DNA of 34,949 bases. Source: a virus. Within the stretch, counting starts at the first letter, position 1, and every line of letters begins with the position of its first letter. The stretch is taken from positions 1-34,949 of the IMG/VR virus record IMGVR_UViG_3300035220_000081; one strand, given 5' to 3'. The notes beneath the pieces were generated by a model that was given only the letters and a program-made list of their open reading frames with translations, had not been told where the DNA came from and did not search any database. A program made the position numbers and the translations under genes. Shown in pieces: positions 10,390 through 22,403 of this stretch.

Positions 10390-10487
10390 CCCTTGCTAAA
10401 GGGTTTATAAAGGGTAGTTTATACCCTACATAATAAAGCTAAAGATAAAGCTAAGGTTATAGTTAAAGATAAAGATAAAGTTAAAGA
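10388..10487 (+). repeat. AAGGGT element, copy A (before holin)
   Basis: AAGGGT occurs at 10399 and 10410 (11-bp period). AGGGTA (10411-10416) then forms an inverted repeat with TACCCT (10422-10427) around a 5-base loop. A further AACCCTT at 10388-10394 forms a hairpin with the first AAGGGTT. An AAAGAT/AAAGCT-rich purine tract fills 10433-10487 up to the holin ATG. The same arrangement recurs at 15196 and 22306. Confidence 0.85.
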
Positions 10488-10488
10488 T

Positions 10489-10878
10489 ATGAGTATTTTA
10501 GGAAAAATTTTTAGTAGTGGTGCAAAAGAGTTAGTAGAATCTGTTGGCGGTATAGTCGATGAACTGCACACATCAAAAGAAGAAAAAGCAGAACTTAAAC
10601 ATAAGTTTGAGGAAATGATAATGTCTTACGAAGCTAAGATGCAACAGGAGGTAACTAAGCGTTGGGAAGCGGATATGCAGGGTAATTGGCTTACAAAGTC
10701 AATAAGACCTTTGACACTAGCTTTCCTGATGATTGTATTAACTACATTTACTTTAGTTGATTTTGGATTTGTAGATATGGATATTAAAGATTCTTGGATT
10801 GACCTATGGCAAATATTAGCCATCACTTGCTTTGGTGCATACTTTGGTGGTCGTTCTTACGAGAAAGTCAAGAAATAG
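10489..10878 (+). CDS. 3TM-type holin (GTA holin family)
   Basis: A 129-residue protein with a charged N-terminal helix, then WLTKSIRPLTLAFLMIVLTT and a second hydrophobic segment ending FGAYFGGRSYEKVKK. The IRPLTL and YFGGRSYEK patterns are typical of the Holin of 3TMs family (PF11351). It would permeabilise the inner membrane for the lysis enzyme. The purine tract of repeat copy A lies directly before its ATG, and two terminators follow its stop, so it ends the lysis transcript. Confidence 0.82.
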   Translation: MSILGKIFSSGAKELVESVGGIVDELHTSKEEKAELKHKFEEMIMSYEAKMQQEVTKRWEADMQGNWLTKSIRPLTLAFLMIVLTTFTLVDFGFVDMDIKDSWIDLWQILAITCFGAYFGGRSYEKVKK

Positions 10879-12971: not shown

Positions 12972-13193
12972 ATGAAAAAAGCAAGAAATGAATTTGAAGT
13001 GTTAATGAGAACACAAGGAGTTACAAAAAGAAAGTTTGGTCAGATAACGGGAGTTAGCGGAACTACAATAGACAAGTATTTAGAAAACCCTACAATGTTA
13101 AGATTAAAACACTTATCTTTGTTAGCTGAAAGTCAGCAGATGAAAGAAGAAGAATTGTTAACCCTTATAAACAAAAAGAATAATGAACTTTAG
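12972..13193 (+). CDS. XRE-like HTH protein
   Basis: This 73-residue protein contains a Cro/C1-type helix-turn-helix: VTKRKFGQITGVSGTTIDKY at about 17-36, followed by a third helix (RLKHLSLLAES). It may regulate the early region; no dimerisation domain is visible. It overlaps the DnaA-like gene by 11 bases, so the two are probably coexpressed. Confidence 0.72.
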   Translation: MKKARNEFEVLMRTQGVTKRKFGQITGVSGTTIDKYLENPTMLRLKHLSLLAESQQMKEEELLTLINKKNNEL

Positions 13194-13605
13194 AATGGAG
13201 GTACTTCAATCTGCTGTTTGTAAACATTACAACATTTCCTCAAAAGAACTACATAGCAAGTCAAGGAAGATGGATATTGTAGGTGCTAGAAGAATGTTTT
13301 TCTTCTTTGCTAGAAAGCACTTCAATAAGACATACACAAGTATTGCCAATATTTTTGGTGCAAATCACGCAACTGTTATGCACCACGAAAAGAAAATGAT
13401 AGGTTATCTTGAGTTTGATAAAAAAGAAATGTTGAGGTATATAAACATCAGAGATATGGTGTTTGATGAGAAAACATTTATAAATATTCGTGATGAGTAC
13501 GACTGTCTTAACAGAGAAAGAATACTTATTACAGATAGAATGGATGAAATTCAAAATGAAATTAATTTAATAAATAACAAAAACGAATTTAATTATGGAA
13601 ATTAA
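13183..13605 (+). CDS. DnaA domain IV-like DNA-binding protein
   Basis: A 140-residue protein. Residues 1-80 match the C-terminal DNA-binding domain of DnaA: SKSRKMDIVGARRMFFFF and the signature segment ANIFGANHATVMHH, where Asn-His-Ala-Thr contacts the DnaA box. It has no AAA+ domain. It may bind the phage origin or host DnaA boxes, directing or blocking initiation. A candidate box lies at 10926. It overlaps the SSB-like gene by 11 bases. Confidence 0.8.
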   Translation: MNFRMEVLQSAVCKHYNISSKELHSKSRKMDIVGARRMFFFFARKHFNKTYTSIANIFGANHATVMHHEKKMIGYLEFDKKEMLRYINIRDMVFDEKTFINIRDEYDCLNRERILITDRMDEIQNEINLINNKNEFNYGN

Positions 13606-14154: not shown

Positions 14155-14322
14155 ATGAATTACGATAGTAGAGAAAAGAAGTACACAAAGGTAAAGAAAT
14201 TAAAGACAAAGATTAAAAAGTCAACAGCTAAGTTCTTGCGATTTTATAATTGGGATGTAAAAGAGATAGCTAACATTCTTGGTGTTAGTCCTAATAGAGT
14301 TTACCAATACCTTAGAGATTAA
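14155..14322 (+). CDS. Small HTH protein
   Basis: This 55-residue ORF starts MNYDSREKKYTKVKKLKTK and ends with a clear helix-turn-helix, VKEIANILGVSPNRVYQYLR, like sigma-70 region 4 or resolvase HTH segments. The N-terminus is strongly basic. It sits between tightly packed genes, with no base between the preceding stop and its ATG. It may act as a small regulator or DNA-binding adaptor. Confidence 0.65.
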   Translation: MNYDSREKKYTKVKKLKTKIKKSTAKFLRFYNWDVKEIANILGVSPNRVYQYLRD

Positions 14323-14867: not shown

Positions 14868-15536
14868 ATGGCAAAAAGAATGACAGATACAGACAAGTGG
14901 AAGAAACGCTTTGTCCGTGAACTAACACCTCAACATAAGCTATTATGGTTTTACATTTTAGATGACTGCAATCACGCAGGAATTTGGGAGGTAGATATTG
15001 ATGTAGCTTCTATAAGAGTAGGCTTTGACCTATCTCAAGACGACTTACCATCACTATTTGGAGATAAGGTAATATCATTTGACAATGGCGACAAATGGTT
15101 TATTCCTGACTTTATTGAGTATCAGTATGGAGAGTTAAATCAAAATTCAAACGTACATAAATCTGTAATTAACCTATTAAACAAATATAATCTTGAAGGG
15201 TATCTAAAGGGTTCACAAAGGGTAGAAAGTACCCTTAAAGATAAAGATACAGATATAGTTATAGTTAAAGAAAAGGTTAAGGCTAAAAGGTTTGCAAAGC
15301 CAACTATTGAAGATATAAAAGAATACTGCATTGAAAGAAACAACTTTGTTGATGCAGAGAAATTCTTTGATTACTATTCTTCTAATGGTTGGAAGGTAGG
15401 AAAGAATCCTATGAAAGATTGGAAAGCATCTGTCAGAACTTGGGAGAAGAACTCAACGTCAGAGCAATCGAAAGGAAAGGTACAACAATCACTAGACACT
15501 TGGCAAGAAGCTAGACAAATGATAAACAATGGATAA
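14868..15536 (+). CDS. DnaD-like replication initiation protein
   Basis: A 222-residue protein with an N-terminal winged-helix-like domain (KRFVRELTPQHKLLWFYILD), a Lys/Asp-rich linker (TLKDKDTDIVIVKEKVKAK), and a C-terminal motif WKVGKNPMKDWKASVRTWEK. This layout is typical of phage DnaD-like or Lin1244-type initiators. The AAGGGT repeat copy B lies inside the gene and encodes part of the linker, as lambda O carries its own origin. It would open the origin and recruit helicase loading. Confidence 0.72.
   Translation: MAKRMTDTDKWKKRFVRELTPQHKLLWFYILDDCNHAGIWEVDIDVASIRVGFDLSQDDLPSLFGDKVISFDNGDKWFIPDFIEYQYGELNQNSNVHKSVINLLNKYNLEGYLKGSQRVESTLKDKDTDIVIVKEKVKAKRFAKPTIEDIKEYCIERNNFVDAEKFFDYYSSNGWKVGKNPMKDWKASVRTWEKNSTSEQSKGKVQQSLDTWQEARQMINNG
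15196..15287 (+). repeat. AAGGGT element, copy B (inside initiator gene), candidate origin
   Basis: Three direct AAGGGT units begin at 15196, 15207 and 15218 (exact 11-bp period). AGGGTA (15219-15224) and TACCCT (15230-15235) are inverted around a 5-base loop, and an AAAGAT-rich tract runs to about 15287. It is conserved with copies A and C although here it is coding, which argues for DNA-level function. Confidence 0.85.
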
Positions 15537-17438: not shown

Positions 17439-17658
17439 AGATATTAAAGTATTGGTTATAGAGCAACTAATTGTTCAGTACAAAGAAATGCAAGAGAAAG
17501 AGGACTACTCTTTTGTAACAAAAGACACTTTGCTAGAAGAAATTTCAAGATTAGAAATGATGGTAAAGTATATGGATAAATTTAAAGATGCAGAGCCAAC
17601 AACAGAGATAGAAACTGCGGAAGTAACTGCTAAAGAAACAAAAGAAGATGAGCATTAA
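17428..17658 (+). CDS. Acidic coiled-coil hypothetical protein
   Basis: This 76-residue acidic protein has a predicted coiled coil (EQLIVQYKEMQEKEDY) and a Thr/Glu-rich tail (TTEIETAEVTAKETKEDEH). The tail sequence contains the 11-mer AAGTAACTGCT, identical to an iteron unit, probably by chance. Its function is unknown. It overlaps both neighbours by 11 bases. Confidence 0.62.
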   Translation: MENKDIKVLVIEQLIVQYKEMQEKEDYSFVTKDTLLEEISRLEMMVKYMDKFKDAEPTTEIETAEVTAKETKEDEH

Positions 17659-17845
17659 TATATACGACAGAAAAGATATGCGTGGAGGTGGATATGCTAA
17701 ACGTAAGTTCACACTAGAAGAAGCGGATGCAATTCGTGCCGAGTATAAGGCGGGAGGTATAAGTCAAAATCAGTTAGCGGCAAAGCACAATGTTAGTCAG
17801 CCAATAATAAATATGCTACTGAAAGGAAAAACTTATACGAAATAA
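17648..17845 (+). CDS. HTH protein
   Basis: This 65-residue protein has a classic helix-turn-helix: TLEEADAIRAEYKAGG followed by SQNQLAAKHNVSQPIINMLL and a GKTYTK end. The pattern is common in HTH modules attached to homing endonucleases and recombinases. It is the last gene of the long operon and may regulate the accessory region downstream. Confidence 0.72.
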   Translation: MSINIYDRKDMRGGGYAKRKFTLEEADAIRAEYKAGGISQNQLAAKHNVSQPIINMLLKGKTYTK

Positions 17846-17887: not shown

Positions 17888-17932
17888 GGGGGGAACTCAG
17901 GGGGGTACACTAGGGGGTACACTAGGGGGGGG
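17888..17932 (+). promoter_or_regulatory. G-quadruplex motif in a 5' leader
   Basis: Four G-runs of 6, 6, 5 and 8 bases are separated by loops of 6, 7 and 7 bases (aactca, tacacta, tacacta). This satisfies the canonical G3+N1-7 quadruplex rule in an AT-rich genome. The last two runs form a tandem GGGGGTACACTA repeat. It is on the RNA-like strand, so the leader mRNA could fold into a quadruplex. Confidence 0.85.
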
Positions 17933-17983: not shown

Positions 17984-18310
17984 ATGAACTACGATGATTG
18001 GAAATTAAGTACACCTGAAGATGAGATGAGCTATGCACCTGAAGTATTAGAAGCTGACGATGTATCTGCTTGGTTGAAAGAACAAGGTGCAGAGAATATA
18101 GATGTAAGACAAGGAGAGATAGATGTAGATGTTACATTTGACTACGAGGGTGCTTACTACATTTTAGAAGATTTAACTTTATTAAAGTACGAAGATATAA
18201 ACTCTATACAAGGTATGATAGGTATGTATGACGACACAGGTACTACTTGTTGTGGTGCAGGTTATGATAGCGACCATAGAAGATGTAACAACTGCAAAGA
18301 AGCGTTTTAA
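17984..18310 (+). CDS. Acidic protein with Cys-rich C-terminus, isolated transcription unit
   Basis: A 108-residue, strongly acidic protein (YAPEVLEADDVSAWLKEQ) with a C-terminal Cys cluster, TTCCGAGYDSDHRRCNNCKEAF, that looks like a small zinc ribbon. It has its own strong promoter, a G-quadruplex leader and the genome's strongest terminator, so it is expressed alone. I do not recognise a family. An early host-takeover or regulatory role is conceivable from this layout. Confidence 0.72.
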   Translation: MNYDDWKLSTPEDEMSYAPEVLEADDVSAWLKEQGAENIDVRQGEIDVDVTFDYEGAYYILEDLTLLKYEDINSIQGMIGMYDDTGTTCCGAGYDSDHRRCNNCKEAF

Positions 18311-18349
18311 TAGTACACATTGTGTTTTGTGTGATTTGTTTTGTGTTTA

Positions 18350-18398
18350 GATGAAGGGTGGGGGTTTTTTAGTTTCCCTCACTTTTCATCTTTTTTTT
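18350..18398 (+). terminator. Strong intrinsic terminator
   Basis: Bases 18350-18364 and 18376-18390 pair over 15 bp (three G-T wobbles) around an 11-base loop, followed by eight T. It is the strongest intrinsic terminator in the window and ends the 17984 unit. Confidence 0.85.
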
Positions 18399-18450
18399 AT
18401 TTCTTTTCTTTTTTTTTTAAATTATATTTTTTTTGATTTTTAAACTTCTC

Positions 18451-18516
18451 AAGTAACTGCGAAGTAACTGCCAAGAAACTGCCAAGTAACTGCTAAGGAA
18501 CTGCCAAGTAACTGCT
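18451..18516 (+). repeat. Iteron array 1, six 11-bp units
   Basis: Six head-to-tail units of consensus AAGTAACTGCC lie at 18451, 18462, 18473, 18484, 18495 and 18506, each differing from consensus at no more than one or two positions. The period equals one helical turn, placing binding sites on one face of the DNA. Confidence 0.92.
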
Positions 18517-18613
18517 GATGGTAGGGGTAGGGGTGTCCTGATGAGCCAAATTCTGTGTTGATATTTTTTTTAAAAAAACATTAGAAAATATTAGGATATT
18601 AAATTTATTTTGT

Positions 18614-18632
18614 TATTTGCGTGTACTTATAT
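18614..18632 (+). promoter_or_regulatory. 19-bp shared element, copy 1
   Basis: TATTTGCGTGTACTTATAT is identical to 20279-20297 in the second control region. The TATTTGC part resembles a -7 box but the upstream TA is missing, so it may be a weak promoter or an operator. Confidence 0.7.
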
Positions 18633-18677
18633 AGCAAAACAAGTATCAAACTTTTTTACAATTATTTTAAAAAAACA

Positions 18678-18708
18678 TTAGGATATTAAAAAAATAGTGT
18701 TATGTTTG
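18678..18708 (+). promoter_or_regulatory. Promoter of the 18733 gene, overlapped by the TTAGGATATTAAA motif
   Basis: TTAG (18678-18681), a 19-base spacer and TATGTTTG (18701-18708). The -33 element is the first part of the repeated motif TTAGGATATTAAA, so a protein bound there would cover the promoter. The leader is about 20 bases long. Confidence 0.72.
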
Positions 18709-18713
18709 CAATG

Positions 18714-18747
18714 AATTTAAAACTAAAACATTATGAACACAACAGAA
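18714..18747 (+). repeat. 34-bp leader duplication, copy 1
   Basis: The 34 bases covering the leader (aactaaaacattATG) and the first five codons, encoding MNTTE, are identical to 19257-19290 at the start of the next gene. The repeat ends with gaa of the fifth codon. Confidence 0.9.
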
Positions 18748-19233
18748 AACAACAAACTAATAGCAGAATTTATGGGTGCTGTCGGCACACCTAAATATAA
18801 TCCTACGGAGTGGGATGTGTACCTCACAGGATGTTTAGACGTTGATTCAGACGATGAAAATGCACAACATTTCTACACTCCTGATGAAATGAAATACCAC
18901 AAATCTTGGAATTGGCTTATGCCTGTAATTAGTAAGTGTTTGGAGATAGGTAAAAATGTACCTATTGAAAGAATTTATCATAGTTTACATACACAAGACT
19001 TATCATTTGCGTACAAATCAGTAGTAGAATTTATTAAGGGCAGAGGGCTAAACTCTGTGTCAGTTACAAACAATTATGAAATAGAAACAGACAATTATAT
19101 AAAATGGTTTAAAGAAGAAAACTCTGACCAATATGGAGAACTTAAATGGTTAATAGATTTACTATTAAATAGTAAACATAAAGATAATATAATTGATGTG
19201 TTAAAAACAACTAATGAGGATTATGTATTATAA
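18733..19233 (+). CDS. Phage ABA-sandwich-like hypothetical protein
   Basis: This 166-residue acidic protein contains NKLIAEFMGAVGTPK, then YHKSWNWLMPVISKCLEIG and VVEFIKGRGL. The order IAEFMG, SWNWLMPV and late FI recalls the widespread Bacteroidetes phage family sometimes called phage ABA sandwich or BC1872-like. The function is unknown. The first five codons and the leader are duplicated at 19257-19290 before the next gene. Confidence 0.65.
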   Translation: MNTTENNKLIAEFMGAVGTPKYNPTEWDVYLTGCLDVDSDDENAQHFYTPDEMKYHKSWNWLMPVISKCLEIGKNVPIERIYHSLHTQDLSFAYKSVVEFIKGRGLNSVSVTNNYEIETDNYIKWFKEENSDQYGELKWLIDLLLNSKHKDNIIDVLKTTNEDYVL

Positions 19234-19243
19234 AAAAAAGTAT

Positions 19244-19251
19244 TATATTTG
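19244..19251 (+). promoter_or_regulatory. -7 element of the 19276 gene
   Basis: TATATTTG is just after the stop of the preceding gene, 24 bases from the ATG. A TTAT at 19221-19224 is at 19-base spacing, a weak -33. Confidence 0.65.
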
Positions 19252-19256
19252 TAAAT

Positions 19257-19290
19257 AATTTAAAACTAAAACATTATGAACACAACAGAA
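19257..19290 (+). repeat. 34-bp leader duplication, copy 2
   Basis: Exact copy of 18714-18747; see that entry. The genes diverge completely after the MNTTE codons. Confidence 0.9.
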
Positions 19291-19446
19291 CAAAGAGCAG
19301 GAGGTTATATAAACGAGGTTTCGGTAGCTAAATCAAGAGCAATTAAAACACCTTTGCACCTATATCCTGAATGGAATACTAAAGTAAACAAATGTAATTC
19401 ACTAGAGGAGATACAAACTTTATTAAAGAAAGATAAAAATAATTAG
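19276..19446 (+). CDS. 56-residue hypothetical protein, duplicated N-terminus
   Basis: This short protein (MNTTEQRAGGYINEVSVAKS, 56 residues) shares its first five codons and leader with the 18733 gene but is otherwise unrelated. Unlike the operon genes further left, it has its own promoter. Its stop TAG overlaps the TTAGG -33 element of the next promoter. No family was recognised. Confidence 0.68.
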   Translation: MNTTEQRAGGYINEVSVAKSRAIKTPLHLYPEWNTKVNKCNSLEEIQTLLKKDKNN

Positions 19447-19475
19447 GTTTATATTAAAAAAGTTTATTATATTTG
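19443..19475 (+). promoter_or_regulatory. Promoter of the 19514 gene
   Basis: TTAG (19443-19446), a 21-base spacer and TATATTTG (19468-19475). The leader is about 34 bases and ends with A-rich sequence (acaagacaATG). Confidence 0.7.
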
Positions 19476-19513
19476 CCTAACAAAACAATTAATAACAACT
19501 AAAACACAAGACA

Positions 19514-19804
19514 ATGAAAGATTTAATAGCAAATAATATTTTAAGAGAGAAGTATTCATCTAGGGGAGGGGGTATAGAAATTGACCTAACAGACTTTGGA
19601 TATGATGGAGAAAAAATGACTACATATCAAAACTATCTAGGAGGAGGTATGCTAGGTAGCGTAAGCAACGATTGTACTATATCAGGATATTGGCAACACG
19701 ACAACGACCTACAAGAAATACAAAGAAACCTGAACGAATACTATTGTGAGCAAATAGGTGCAACGACAGAGGACTTTGACAACAGACCTACATCAGCGTA
19801 CTAA
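19514..19804 (+). CDS. Hypothetical accessory protein
   Basis: A 96-residue acidic protein with a Gly-rich middle (YQNYLGGGMLGSVSND) and no recognised family. It has its own promoter, while the following 19846 gene appears to be cotranscribed. The D/N-rich ends suggest a soluble protein. Confidence 0.65.
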   Translation: MKDLIANNILREKYSSRGGGIEIDLTDFGYDGEKMTTYQNYLGGGMLGSVSNDCTISGYWQHDNDLQEIQRNLNEYYCEQIGATTEDFDNRPTSAY

Positions 19805-19845
19805 AACAAAAGAAAGTAGCTTAAAACACATTAAAACAAGAAACA

Positions 19846-20046
19846 ATGAGAACATTTGAATATAGAAGTAGCGAATTAAACAATATGGTAAAAGATGGAT
19901 ACGAGAATAGCCATCGAGAAATTGACTACTACAAGATTAATTTAAAGATATGGGATACTAAAAACAATAGCACCAAGACCTTATCAATAACTAACAAAGA
20001 ATACAATAAGATAAAAGAAATACTTTTGGAGGATAAAGAAAATTAA
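19846..20046 (+). CDS. Hypothetical accessory protein
   Basis: A 66-residue basic protein with strand and helix segments (REIDYYKINLKIWDTKNN, then NKEYNKIKEIL) and no recognised family. It lies 41 bases after the preceding gene without its own promoter and ends just before control region R2. Confidence 0.62.
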   Translation: MRTFEYRSSELNNMVKDGYENSHREIDYYKINLKIWDTKNNSTKTLSITNKEYNKIKEILLEDKEN

Positions 20047-20069
20047 ATTTTTGTGTTTTGTTTTGTTTT

Positions 20070-20105
20070 AAAAAAAGTTTGCAATTTATTTTGTAGGCTT
20101 TTTTT
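20070..20105 (+). terminator. Weak A/T hairpin terminator
   Basis: AAAAAAAG (20070-20077) can pair with CTTTTTTT (20098-20105), followed by more T. The stem is almost all A-T, so it is only a weak candidate. Confidence 0.35.
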
Positions 20106-20110
20106 TTATG

Positions 20111-20154
20111 TAGTATCTGCCGAGTATCTGCCGAGTATCTGCCAAGTAACTGCC
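20111..20154 (+). repeat. Iteron array 2, four 11-bp units
   Basis: Units at 20111, 20122, 20133 and 20144 read TAGTATCTGCC, GAGTATCTGCC (twice) and AAGTAACTGCC, the same family and phase as array 1. The first three share the A-to-T change in the centre (ATC), suggesting local tandem expansion. Confidence 0.9.
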
Positions 20155-20278
20155 AAATCTATAATGATTTTTTTATTGTGTGTTTTTGGCTTTTTTTTTG
20201 CTCTTATTTAGAATGATTATAAATAATAACTTGTTAATAACTTTATGCTTTTTTTATTGTGAGATTAAAAAATTAGTG

Positions 20279-20297
20279 TATTTGCGTGTACTTATAT
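20279..20297 (+). promoter_or_regulatory. 19-bp shared element, copy 2
   Basis: This is identical to 18614-18632. It lies about 125 bases after the iterons here and about 98 bases after them in R1. Confidence 0.7.
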
Positions 20298-20382: not shown

Positions 20383-20415
20383 TTTGCTTTGTATTAAAAA
20401 ACTTTTATATATTTG
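20383..20415 (+). promoter_or_regulatory. Promoter of the 20442 operon
   Basis: TTTG (20383-20386), a 21-base spacer and TATATTTG (20408-20415). The leader is about 22 bases long. Confidence 0.72.
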
Positions 20416-20441: not shown

Positions 20442-20588
20442 ATGATTTCTTTAAAAGAACAATTAGAACACGAACAAAAGACAGCAATTAAATGGATTAA
20501 CCTTTATAAAGATACCCATTCAAAAGACGTTTGCTTTTGGCAAGGTTATTTAAATGCTATAAATAAATTAATAGAATTAAATAGATAA
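20442..20588 (+). CDS. 48-residue hypothetical protein
   Basis: This short protein (MISLKEQLEHEQKTAIKWIN, ending FWQGYLNAINKLIELNR) is probably helical. Its pattern of an early Lys/Gln-rich helix and a late FWxGYLxAIN motif is common in small Bacteroidetes phage proteins. The function is unknown. It is first in an operon of small genes. Confidence 0.65.
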   Translation: MISLKEQLEHEQKTAIKWINLYKDTHSKDVCFWQGYLNAINKLIELNR

Positions 20589-20620
20589 CAACTAAAAACA
20601 TTAATTTAATTTAAAAAAAG

Positions 20621-20824
20621 ATGCAAAACGACACAATAAGCGAAAGACTAGAACTAACACTAGGAAACATCAAACACCAACAAAACCTTGTTTTGTGGGA
20701 CGACCTCGAAAAATTAGAGGAAGTACTAGAAAGAGTACAAGAACTAGAGAAACAAAACGAATTTTTAAAAGCTAAAATATTAAATTTAAAATATAAAATT
20801 CCAATAAGAACTAATTTAATTTAA
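20621..20824 (+). CDS. Coiled-coil hypothetical protein
   Basis: A 67-residue protein dominated by a coiled coil (DLEKLEEVLERVQELEKQNE). It has no recognised family and lies 32 bases after the previous gene in the same direction. A scaffolding or binding-partner role is possible. Confidence 0.65.
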   Translation: MQNDTISERLELTLGNIKHQQNLVLWDDLEKLEEVLERVQELEKQNEFLKAKILNLKYKIPIRTNLI

Positions 20825-20831
20825 AAATACT

Positions 20832-20969
20832 ATGAAATATTACACCAACCCCAAACACCAAGAACGACCAACCGAAAAAGTAAATTTACAGGATGTTATT
20901 TTATTACTTTCTTTCACTTTTATTTTCGTTCTACCATTTATTAACGCATTAATCAAAACAAATTTTTAA
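20832..20969 (+). CDS. 45-residue membrane protein
   Basis: This short ORF has a polar N-terminus (MKYYTNPKHQERPTEKVN) and one membrane helix (VILLLSFTFIFVLPFI) near the end. Its function is unknown. It lies seven bases after the preceding stop and five before the next gene. Confidence 0.55.
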   Translation: MKYYTNPKHQERPTEKVNLQDVILLLSFTFIFVLPFINALIKTNF

Positions 20970-20973
20970 TATT

Positions 20974-21237
20974 ATGAAAGTTTACAATTTAAGAAGTAGA
21001 AATGGAAATTTTGTACCTAATCAGTTTGAAATTTACCATAAAAACGAGTTATTTTTTCAATCATACAAAACTATAATTGCAAAGATAGATAAGAACGGAA
21101 AAACAATTTTAGATACTTTTGCCCTAGAATATAGCAGAACAACAAGCAAATATCTTTATCATTTTTTAGGATATGATAGAAAAGAAATACAAAACAGAAT
21201 AAAAAACAAATCAATAATTTTAAAAAACCTAAACTAA
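20974..21237 (+). CDS. Hypothetical protein with SRTTSKYLYHFLG motif
   Basis: An 87-residue basic protein. The segment ALEYSRTTSKYLYHFLG and the helix KEIQNRIKNKSI match a recurring small phage protein in Bacteroidetes, function unknown. The stop overlaps the next ATG. Confidence 0.65.
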   Translation: MKVYNLRSRNGNFVPNQFEIYHKNELFFQSYKTIIAKIDKNGKTILDTFALEYSRTTSKYLYHFLGYDRKEIQNRIKNKSIILKNLN

Positions 21238-21611
21238 TGAATGTATTAAAAATTAACATAGGATTAAATAACAATCCTTTAAACGCTGAACAGATAAAAC
21301 AAATGTTTTATAAAAATTCTATCTTTGAGTTTATACTCTTTGAAGAAAGAAAAGGAGAATATAAAAACAACTATGAACCGACCTTATTAATTGAAGGAGA
21401 AACAAAGCAAACACCTGAACAAGTAGAAAGTTATATATTTTTATTATGTAGCTTATTAACTCAGGAATGTATACCTTTTGCGTTTGAAGAGCTTTTAAGC
21501 AAGGAACAAAAGCAAATCAATAAGTTAGTATATAATAAAACTTTTAAAGGCTTAAAATTCAAATTTGATAAAGACTATTTTTTAACTATTGGAAACAATA
21601 CAAACAACTAA
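21237..21611 (+). CDS. Hypothetical protein
   Basis: A 124-residue acidic to neutral protein (FEFILFEERKGEYKNN, then PTLLIEGETKQTPEQVESY). It has strand-helix alternation and is probably a compact globular domain. No family was recognised. It is coupled by a one-base overlap with the previous gene. Confidence 0.65.
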   Translation: MNVLKINIGLNNNPLNAEQIKQMFYKNSIFEFILFEERKGEYKNNYEPTLLIEGETKQTPEQVESYIFLLCSLLTQECIPFAFEELLSKEQKQINKLVYNKTFKGLKFKFDKDYFLTIGNNTNN

Positions 21612-21616
21612 AAACA

Positions 21617-21778
21617 ATGATAGACCACAAATACAAGATCGAATATCTAAACTTATGTAAGACTTTCGGAACGTTTGAAATTGATTCTATTTTTACCTTT
21701 GAGAGATACAAAGAGATAAGAAAAGAACATACACAAAGCCAAGTAATTAACGAAATTTACAATCTTTTAAAAGTATGA
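21617..21778 (+). CDS. 53-residue hypothetical protein
   Basis: This short ORF (MIDHKYKIEYLNLCKTFGTF, 53 residues) is probably helical at the end (RYKEIRKEHTQSQVINEIYN). It overlaps the next ATG as ATGA, a typical coupling. Its function is unknown. Confidence 0.6.
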   Translation: MIDHKYKIEYLNLCKTFGTFEIDSIFTFERYKEIRKEHTQSQVINEIYNLLKV

Positions 21779-21908: not shown

Positions 21909-22305
21909 GCTATGTTTTTAAATTGGATAGATAATTTAGCAAAATAGTAGCATTTTTCAAGGAATTGTGCAACTTTTCAAGCTAGAATCTGCAATATTTG
22001 TTGAAAAAAGACGTTTTTTTTAATATTTGAGAGATAAAAGTCCGTCAAATTTTGCATAAAGATAGTATTGCCACATCCACATAACCACAAGATTTTCAAA
22101 GTCAATTTTATATGTTAATTAGGGTTAGTATTATTTGTAGAGTTACAATATATACTGTTATGCTTTAAGTACGTTTATTCAGCGTTGCAAGAACACCACG
22201 AAGTTAGTATTAAGATAATAGACTATTACGCAAAAATTGGAAGGAAACTAAAAATAGACCCCCATATTACACAAAAAAAATTTTGAAGTCCTATTTTATA
22301 GGCTG

Positions 22306-22380
22306 AAGGGTTTGTGAAGGGTATGCTGTACCCTTATAGATAAAGCTAAAGCTATAAATAAAGATAAAGATAGGGTTAAA
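22306..22380 (+). repeat. AAGGGT element, copy C (before terminase)
   Basis: AAGGGT units lie at 22306 and 22317 (11-bp period), followed by AGGGTA (22318-22323) and TACCCT (22329-22334) around a 5-base loop. An AAAGCT/AAAGAT-rich tract then runs to 22380, abutting the terminase promoter. Confidence 0.85.
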
Positions 22381-22391
22381 GGTTTTTTTAT

Positions 22392-22399
22392 TATATTTG
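22392..22399 (+). promoter_or_regulatory. Terminase promoter (-7), leaderless type
   Basis: TATATTTG lies four bases before the ATG at 22404. The -33 region falls in the repeat tract (ATAG at 22370, spacer 18), which could make this promoter sensitive to proteins bound to copy C. Confidence 0.7.
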
Positions 22400-22403
22400 C
22401 AAT

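Follow-up and report, generated by a model that had tools for sequence, protein, structure and literature searches.

Phased 11-bp direct repeats as probable operators of a linked small helix-turn-helix protein at the edge of a hypervariable region in uncultured marine phages

The question raised by this locus is which protein recognizes two arrays of 11-bp direct repeats that flank a cassette of small genes, and what the arrays control. They lie in the genome of a tailed phage (IMG/VR virus record IMGVR_UViG_3300035220_000081, 34,949 bases, analysed in full and here called the window), and the original prediction listed replication, partition or a cooperative repressor as possible roles. Our preferred answer, held with modest confidence, is that the arrays are cooperative operators of a 65-amino-acid (65-aa) helix-turn-helix (HTH) protein encoded upstream of them (Table 1), and that they control the adjoining region of accessory genes. 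We infer the binding of the HTH protein, its cooperativity and the sign of regulation at the arrays from sequence comparisons.

The six units of array 1 start at positions 18451, 18462, 18473, 18484, 18495 and 18506 and the four units of array 2 at 20111, 20122, 20133 and 20144, exactly 11 bp apart in both cases. Single sites with up to 3 mismatches occur in the window at chance level (92 found, 96 expected), and the longest in-phase run was 6 units compared with a maximum of 1 in 300 dinucleotide shuffles. The coordinates and the shuffle test thus confirmed the predicted arrays of six and four units. The two arrays had also been described as sharing a consensus and helical phase; the 11-bp period held, but the common consensus did not, as array 2 consists mostly of the variant GTATCTGCC and only its last unit matches the consensus. 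Both gaps are gene-free, as had been proposed, with each array behind an intrinsic terminator, and the open reading frame (ORF) list settles the expected three to four small genes between them at four. Array RNA was unstructured (z −1.1), indicating that the element acts at the DNA level; together with the absence of any Rfam match, this led us to reject an RNA function. Across the genome, GnAWCTGC showed a strong strand bias (30 copies on the plus strand and 1 on the minus strand), with 19 coding copies compared with 6.6 expected from synonymous shuffles. A Chi-like role was considered and dropped, since AACTGC ranked merely 45th of 4096 6-mers against synonymous shuffles, and because of this rank the polarity is attributed mostly to codon context.

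Conservation of the array was assessed in several hundred loci, mostly related, gathered by scans with a DNA word, terL, the O-like protein and the HTH protein. The search was seeded from the lineage of the source phage, all sequences are metagenome assemblies, and for most counts near-identical contigs were dereplicated by exact sequence only. In 72 dereplicated arrays behind HTH homologues, the unit was TGAAACTGC(C/T), present as 2–7 direct repeats on the coding strand. Conservation was 100% at the G, C, T, G and C positions and 97% at the pair of A's that precede the core C; the sequence flanking the arrays was strongly divergent. Of 210 spacings, 178 were 11 bp (137), 12 bp (32) or 13 bp (9), and a further 23 were 20–23 bp. 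The originally suggested check for 11-bp repeats in related phages therefore found the spacing conserved, which supports a cooperative protein-binding array. Sites were present wherever the relatives' sequence spans the region, apart from the exceptions named below, and lay 2.4–5.2 kb before terL. A second array was also found in L068, L022, L028, L057 and L013, where the control region is likewise doubled around a small-gene cassette. One contig (L083:1-48) begins with GC-rich low-complexity sequence (GCGGGGGAGGGGAGCGG...) although the phage is AT-rich, probably an assembly artefact.

The array and the HTH gene were linked in both directions. The DNA pattern alone, with at least 3 units required, picked out 69 loci: the HTH protein is encoded in 57, another 12 are truncated upstream and none lacks it. 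Conversely, the protein alone led to 58 HTH loci with 900 nt or more of sequence behind the gene, and clustered sites were present in all 58, compared with 0 of 1300 shuffles. With 1.2 kb of downstream sequence available, 119 of 125 HTH loci carry at least 2 phased units; among the six remaining, L076 has a variant array, GAGACTGC, and L081 has sites spaced more widely, in L013, L124 and L129 the arrays lie beyond the stretch scanned, and the sixth, L153, belongs to a contig with the array in another locus. The HTH gene is typically 0.3–0.7 kb upstream of the array in the relatives. Alignment of 52 homologues, down to approximately 51% identity, showed an invariant arm (R8-K9-D10-x-R12-G13-G14-G15 ... 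R19-K20-F21) and an invariant recognition-helix motif (V49-S50-Q51), residues as constant as the core of the array DNA. An AlphaFold model predicted a three-helix HTH with recognition helix 51–59; its pLDDT was 69 with 9 sequences and 82 with 52. The two-way linkage and the invariant residues lend support to the earlier suggestion that this protein may be the binder. No Pfam model scored above cut-off and PHROGs gave weak generic HTH matches. A comparison with sequences of solved structures gave no match (best E 0.67, not KorA), and a Foldseek search of a viral library recovered phage HTH and HNH-endonuclease proteins (best E 0.013).

Copies of GAAACTGC also occur in coding sequence of some relatives as Glu-Thr-Ala (ETA) repeats, mostly at 9-bp spacing, in the gene(s) just 5' of the HTH gene (L112:6707-6790, L110, L114 and L161), and the window has a site pair 17–37 bp before the HTH start (17609–17631). 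Autoregulation through upstream sites was rejected, as paired sites were present in just 15 of 171 upstream regions and were mostly coding ETA repeats. Between the HTH gene and the ORF at 17984, a non-coding repeat of GGGGGTACACTA is present in 3.5 copies (17888–17930).

The position of the arrays was equally consistent. A terminator T tract precedes 51 of the 72 arrays, which start 0–68 bp behind it (median 8 bp), and a TAnnTTTG box, the flavobacterial sigmaA consensus (PMC9723704), follows within 420 nt in 69 of 72, compared with 21 expected. The 16-mer TTGCGTGTACTTATAT has just two copies in the window, one behind each array. What follows the array is highly variable: in 23 contigs, a pair of genomes has on average 15% of ORFs in common from the HTH gene to terS, compared with 56% in the block from O to HTH. 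PADLOC, which models defence proteins and not inhibitors, matched none of ten genes of this region, where the genes are too small and too novel for a name. Various motifs recur downstream of the arrays, each confined to part of the 72 and far above shuffled expectation, including GTTnATAAC-type motifs (35/72, 3.9 expected), TTAGTGT...ACAC dyads (20/72), GGATATTAAA (17/72), GTACnTATAT (12/72) and TTAGAA-n-TTCTAA-type palindromes (10/72). Some relatives have 23-bp tandem repeats with the dyad TTAGTGT...TACACT directly behind the array (L079:7300-7387, L082:1433-1486 and L076:734-897), a second operator-like array in this subset.

Table 1. Coordinates of the arrays, the putative binder gene and other features in the window.
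Feature	Position	Strand	Details
Array 1, six direct repeats AAG(T/A/G)AACTGC(C/T/G)	18451-18516	+	Period 11 bp; position and orientation shared by relatives
Array 2, four direct repeats, three of them the variant (T/G)AGTATCTGCC	20111-20154	+	Period 11 bp
65-aa HTH protein, proposed array binder	17648-17845	+	0.6 kb before array 1
Intrinsic terminator of upstream (replication) gene block	18349-18399	+	Hairpin −23.7 kcal/mol, z −6.4, with a T tract behind it; array 1 follows about 50 bp downstream
Intrinsic terminator of cassette	20070-20109	+	Immediately before array 2; hairpin −13.0 kcal/mol, z −5.5
Shared 16-mer TTGCGTGTACTTATAT, control region 1	18617-18632	+
Shared 16-mer TTGCGTGTACTTATAT, control region 2	20282-20297	+
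TATGTTTG, −7 box (TAnnTTTG), predicted promoter of first cassette gene	18701-18708	+	From sequence
TATATTTG, −7 box, predicted promoter after array 2	20408-20415	+	From sequence
TTGTTAATAACTT, putative DnaA-box-like element of the GTTnATAAC type after array 2	20231-20243	+
Cassette of four small ORFs between arrays	18733-20046	+	18733-19233, 19276-19446, 19514-19804, 19846-20046
Additional small accessory ORFs behind array 2	20442-21778	+
Origin-like element in O-like gene linker	15196-15290
Origin-like element before terS	22306-22378
Origin-like element before holin gene	10399-10489
terL	22765
Portal	4883
Head protease	2009
Holin	10489

In the mechanism we propose, each 11-bp unit, with its core GnAACTGC(C/T), would take one HTH domain, and with units about one helical turn apart the proteins would sit side by side on one face of the DNA in a head-to-tail row. 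With the terminator of the early replication block on one side and the promoter(s) of the hypervariable accessory genes on the other, this row would set transcription of the accessory region, most likely by repressing or timing it and possibly by insulating it. The control region appears to have been duplicated together with the small-gene cassette in the source phage and those closest to it, and the off-consensus units of the second copy are presumably weaker. The locus has the features of a regulatory HTH operator array, namely helix-phased repeats, linkage to an HTH gene and placement between terminator and promoter. Because of this placement, and of the duplication with the cassette, control of transcription is favoured over a function that needs a unique site, such as replication origin or packaging.

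Several observations weigh against the operator interpretation. The nearest good −7 box is approximately 185–255 bp downstream of the array, which is far for a simple repressor or activator, and some spacings in a distant clade are 9 bp, off the helical phase. Foldseek gave no match in the Protein Data Bank (PDB) with E below 0.37, and the binding mode is thus not copied from a solved relative; the weak matches (E 0.37 or worse) include CENP-B, HipB and ArdK bound to direct repeats. Gene order is conserved across O-P-DUF3310-HTH-array, and since O, P and DUF3310 belong to this syntenic block, the HTH gene does not stand out by linkage alone. Of 47 checked loci, two had no array in the covered sequence (L112 and L153). 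The array of the L153 contig falls in another locus, L087; L112, which ends 1.1 kb after the HTH gene, has no non-coding array and is unexplained.

Insulation is the nearest competitor to repression or timing, and we infer both. The HTH row might act mainly as a roadblock behind the early terminator, stopping read-through into the accessory region; in favour of this are the short distance between T tract and array, the variable distance to the promoter and, in some relatives (L134 and L164), a unit that belongs to the terminator stem. However, a T6 tract is missing within 90 nt of 21 of the 72 arrays, and a strong hairpin terminator should need no extra block; we consider a mainly insulating function rather unlikely.

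The arrays resemble replication iterons, have an AT-rich flank and, in about half of the 72 cases, are followed by the GTTnATAAC-type motifs, as might be expected of a (second) origin with repeats bound by an initiator beside DnaA-box-like sites. In the window, however, there are two arrays and array 1 has no DnaA-box-like site behind it, and the O-type gene has repeats and an AT-rich hexamer tract of its own, conserved in the O relatives examined. Discriminating evidence comes from approximately 38 loci where the N-terminal domain of O has no detectable similarity to that of the window; these keep the GAAACTGC array and the HTH gene, and most of their O genes carry AAAGGGGGTATTAAAGAAAACTT repeats instead of AAGGGT. 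O therefore tracks its in-gene repeats rather than the array, which excludes the O-like initiator as the array binder. This also speaks against the initial comparison with replication iterons and agrees with the initial view that the array system is independent of the AAGGGT element. The arrays are 2.9–4.6 kb from the end of the O-like gene, within which the AAGGGT repeats lie; they are neither in or next to the initiator gene nor co-varying with its domain, as repeats of a lambda-O-type iteron origin would be. We regard an origin function of the arrays as improbable.

In loci with a replaced O N-terminal domain (L254, L336, L340 and others), the in-gene AAAGGGGGTATTAAAGAAAACTT, approximately 22 bp, occurs twice and is followed by AT-rich trinucleotides. 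It appears that iteron and initiator domain are exchanged together, and the likely site of the origin is the O-like gene, which has lineage-specific repeats of its own. Three origin-like elements (Table 1), each with direct and inverted AAGGGT repeats and, behind them, an AT-rich (AAAGNT)n hexamer tract, are conserved in relatives, possibly representing several origins in one phage.

As the syntenic gene block makes linkage unspecific, the array could instead be bound by a host factor or by another phage protein of the conserved block, with the HTH gene a linked neighbour. A comparison of unit type (AAG... or ...TGAAA) with protein trees was set aside, as all linked genes correlate and none stands out. 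However, the other annotated DNA-binding candidates were excluded or patchy, and the HTH protein was the sole DNA-binding protein found with every array checked. A stand-alone DnaA domain IV protein (13183–13605; PF08299, E 6e-19), without ATPase domain, is present in most relatives. It was undetected in 7 of 47 long-enough loci, 6 of which have an array, and its proposed role as binder was abandoned. Two further candidates put forward from the window, an XRE protein and the HTH protein at 14155, were found in just 12 and 0 of 19 distant relatives, respectively. We consider a different binder improbable.

Least likely of all, and by our estimate very improbable, is a packaging (pac/cos) or segregation site bound by the terminase small subunit or a partition protein: phased direct repeats recall terminase or ParR sites and many assemblies end between array and terL, but such contig ends are also expected from hypervariability, the array is duplicated in the window and lies 2.2–4 kb upstream of terS there and not next to it as pac or cos would, the DNA directly before terS is instead a long, conserved stretch without genes, and the earlier idea of a partition role found no parM, tubZ or other partition gene among the ORFs scanned. 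The stretch before terS (21910–22400, approximately 500 bp), with the AAGGGT element in most relatives shown, is itself a candidate packaging site.

A broader hypothesis, which we offer tentatively, is that operator array and HTH protein form a family-wide system of marine phages, in which the nucleoprotein row would mark the fixed border of an exchangeable accessory island and serve as its master switch; the island would then probably hold host-takeover or counter-defence genes. The nearest terL matches include flavobacterial phages (37–43% identity), and these matches and the TAnnTTTG style of −7 box point to a flavobacterial host. The terL gene had no match in genome contigs and O had distant matches only; among phages there was no near DNA match to a cultured relative and no match to the HTH protein, and P2559Y has no array. 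The phages represent an uncultured, widely sampled marine group, of which the collections searched contain no close cultured member.

The analysis pairs an unnamed 65-aa protein with a likely DNA site on sequence evidence alone, and comparison across the O-domain swap separates origin repeats from regulatory repeats within the same genomes. If the operator interpretation is correct, the array marks the start of the hypervariable region in each genome and would offer a handle for discovering accessory or counter-defence genes, a gene-finding strategy that has been applied to archaeal viruses (PMC11065993). It would also provide a compact model of single HTH domains reading phased direct repeats, a mode described as restricted to few regulators (PMC9723621). 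Should the master-switch hypothesis hold, the GAAACTGCC array could be used as an address label for hundreds of unknown accessory genes.

No description of the array was found in the open-access literature searched, and the closest parallels are with better known repeat-binding systems. In lambda-type origins, the iterons lie inside the O gene. The source phage has such an arrangement at 15196–15290 with its AAGGGT repeats, whereas the GAAACTGCC array lies elsewhere, is non-coding and is independent of the O-like protein. The parC site of plasmid R1 has ten 11-bp direct repeats flanking the par promoter, according to the title of a study cited in PMC9426499, and the phage array likewise consists of approximately 11-bp direct repeats, within the 10–20 bp typical of parC sites. 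ParMRC systems, however, combine a ribbon-helix-helix adaptor with ParM, and the neighbour of the phage array is a three-helix HTH protein, with no ParM or TubZ among the ORFs scanned. As with Aca repressors (PMC9410906), a small phage HTH protein is associated with a regulatory sequence, close to a variable region whose genes could include counter-defence genes. Aca proteins bind inverted repeats in the core promoter of their own acr-aca operon (PMC9410906), whereas the phage array has direct repeats upstream of another promoter and its HTH gene belongs to the preceding replication block, an arrangement distinct from Aca. In ArdK/KorA-type plasmid repressors, a small HTH protein also acts on direct repeats; the structure of ArdK of R388 on direct-repeat DNA is available (PDB 7bca), and ArdK represses five R388 genes with a direct repeat in their promoters (PMC9723621). 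The Foldseek similarity to ArdK (E 1.4–2.6) was not significant and does not place the phage protein in the KorA/ArdK family. As an asymmetric dimer, ArdK acts on direct-repeat sites of several promoters, whereas the phages have 2–7 tandem units at one place and a protein that consists of no more than a 65-aa three-helix unit and its long conserved basic arm.
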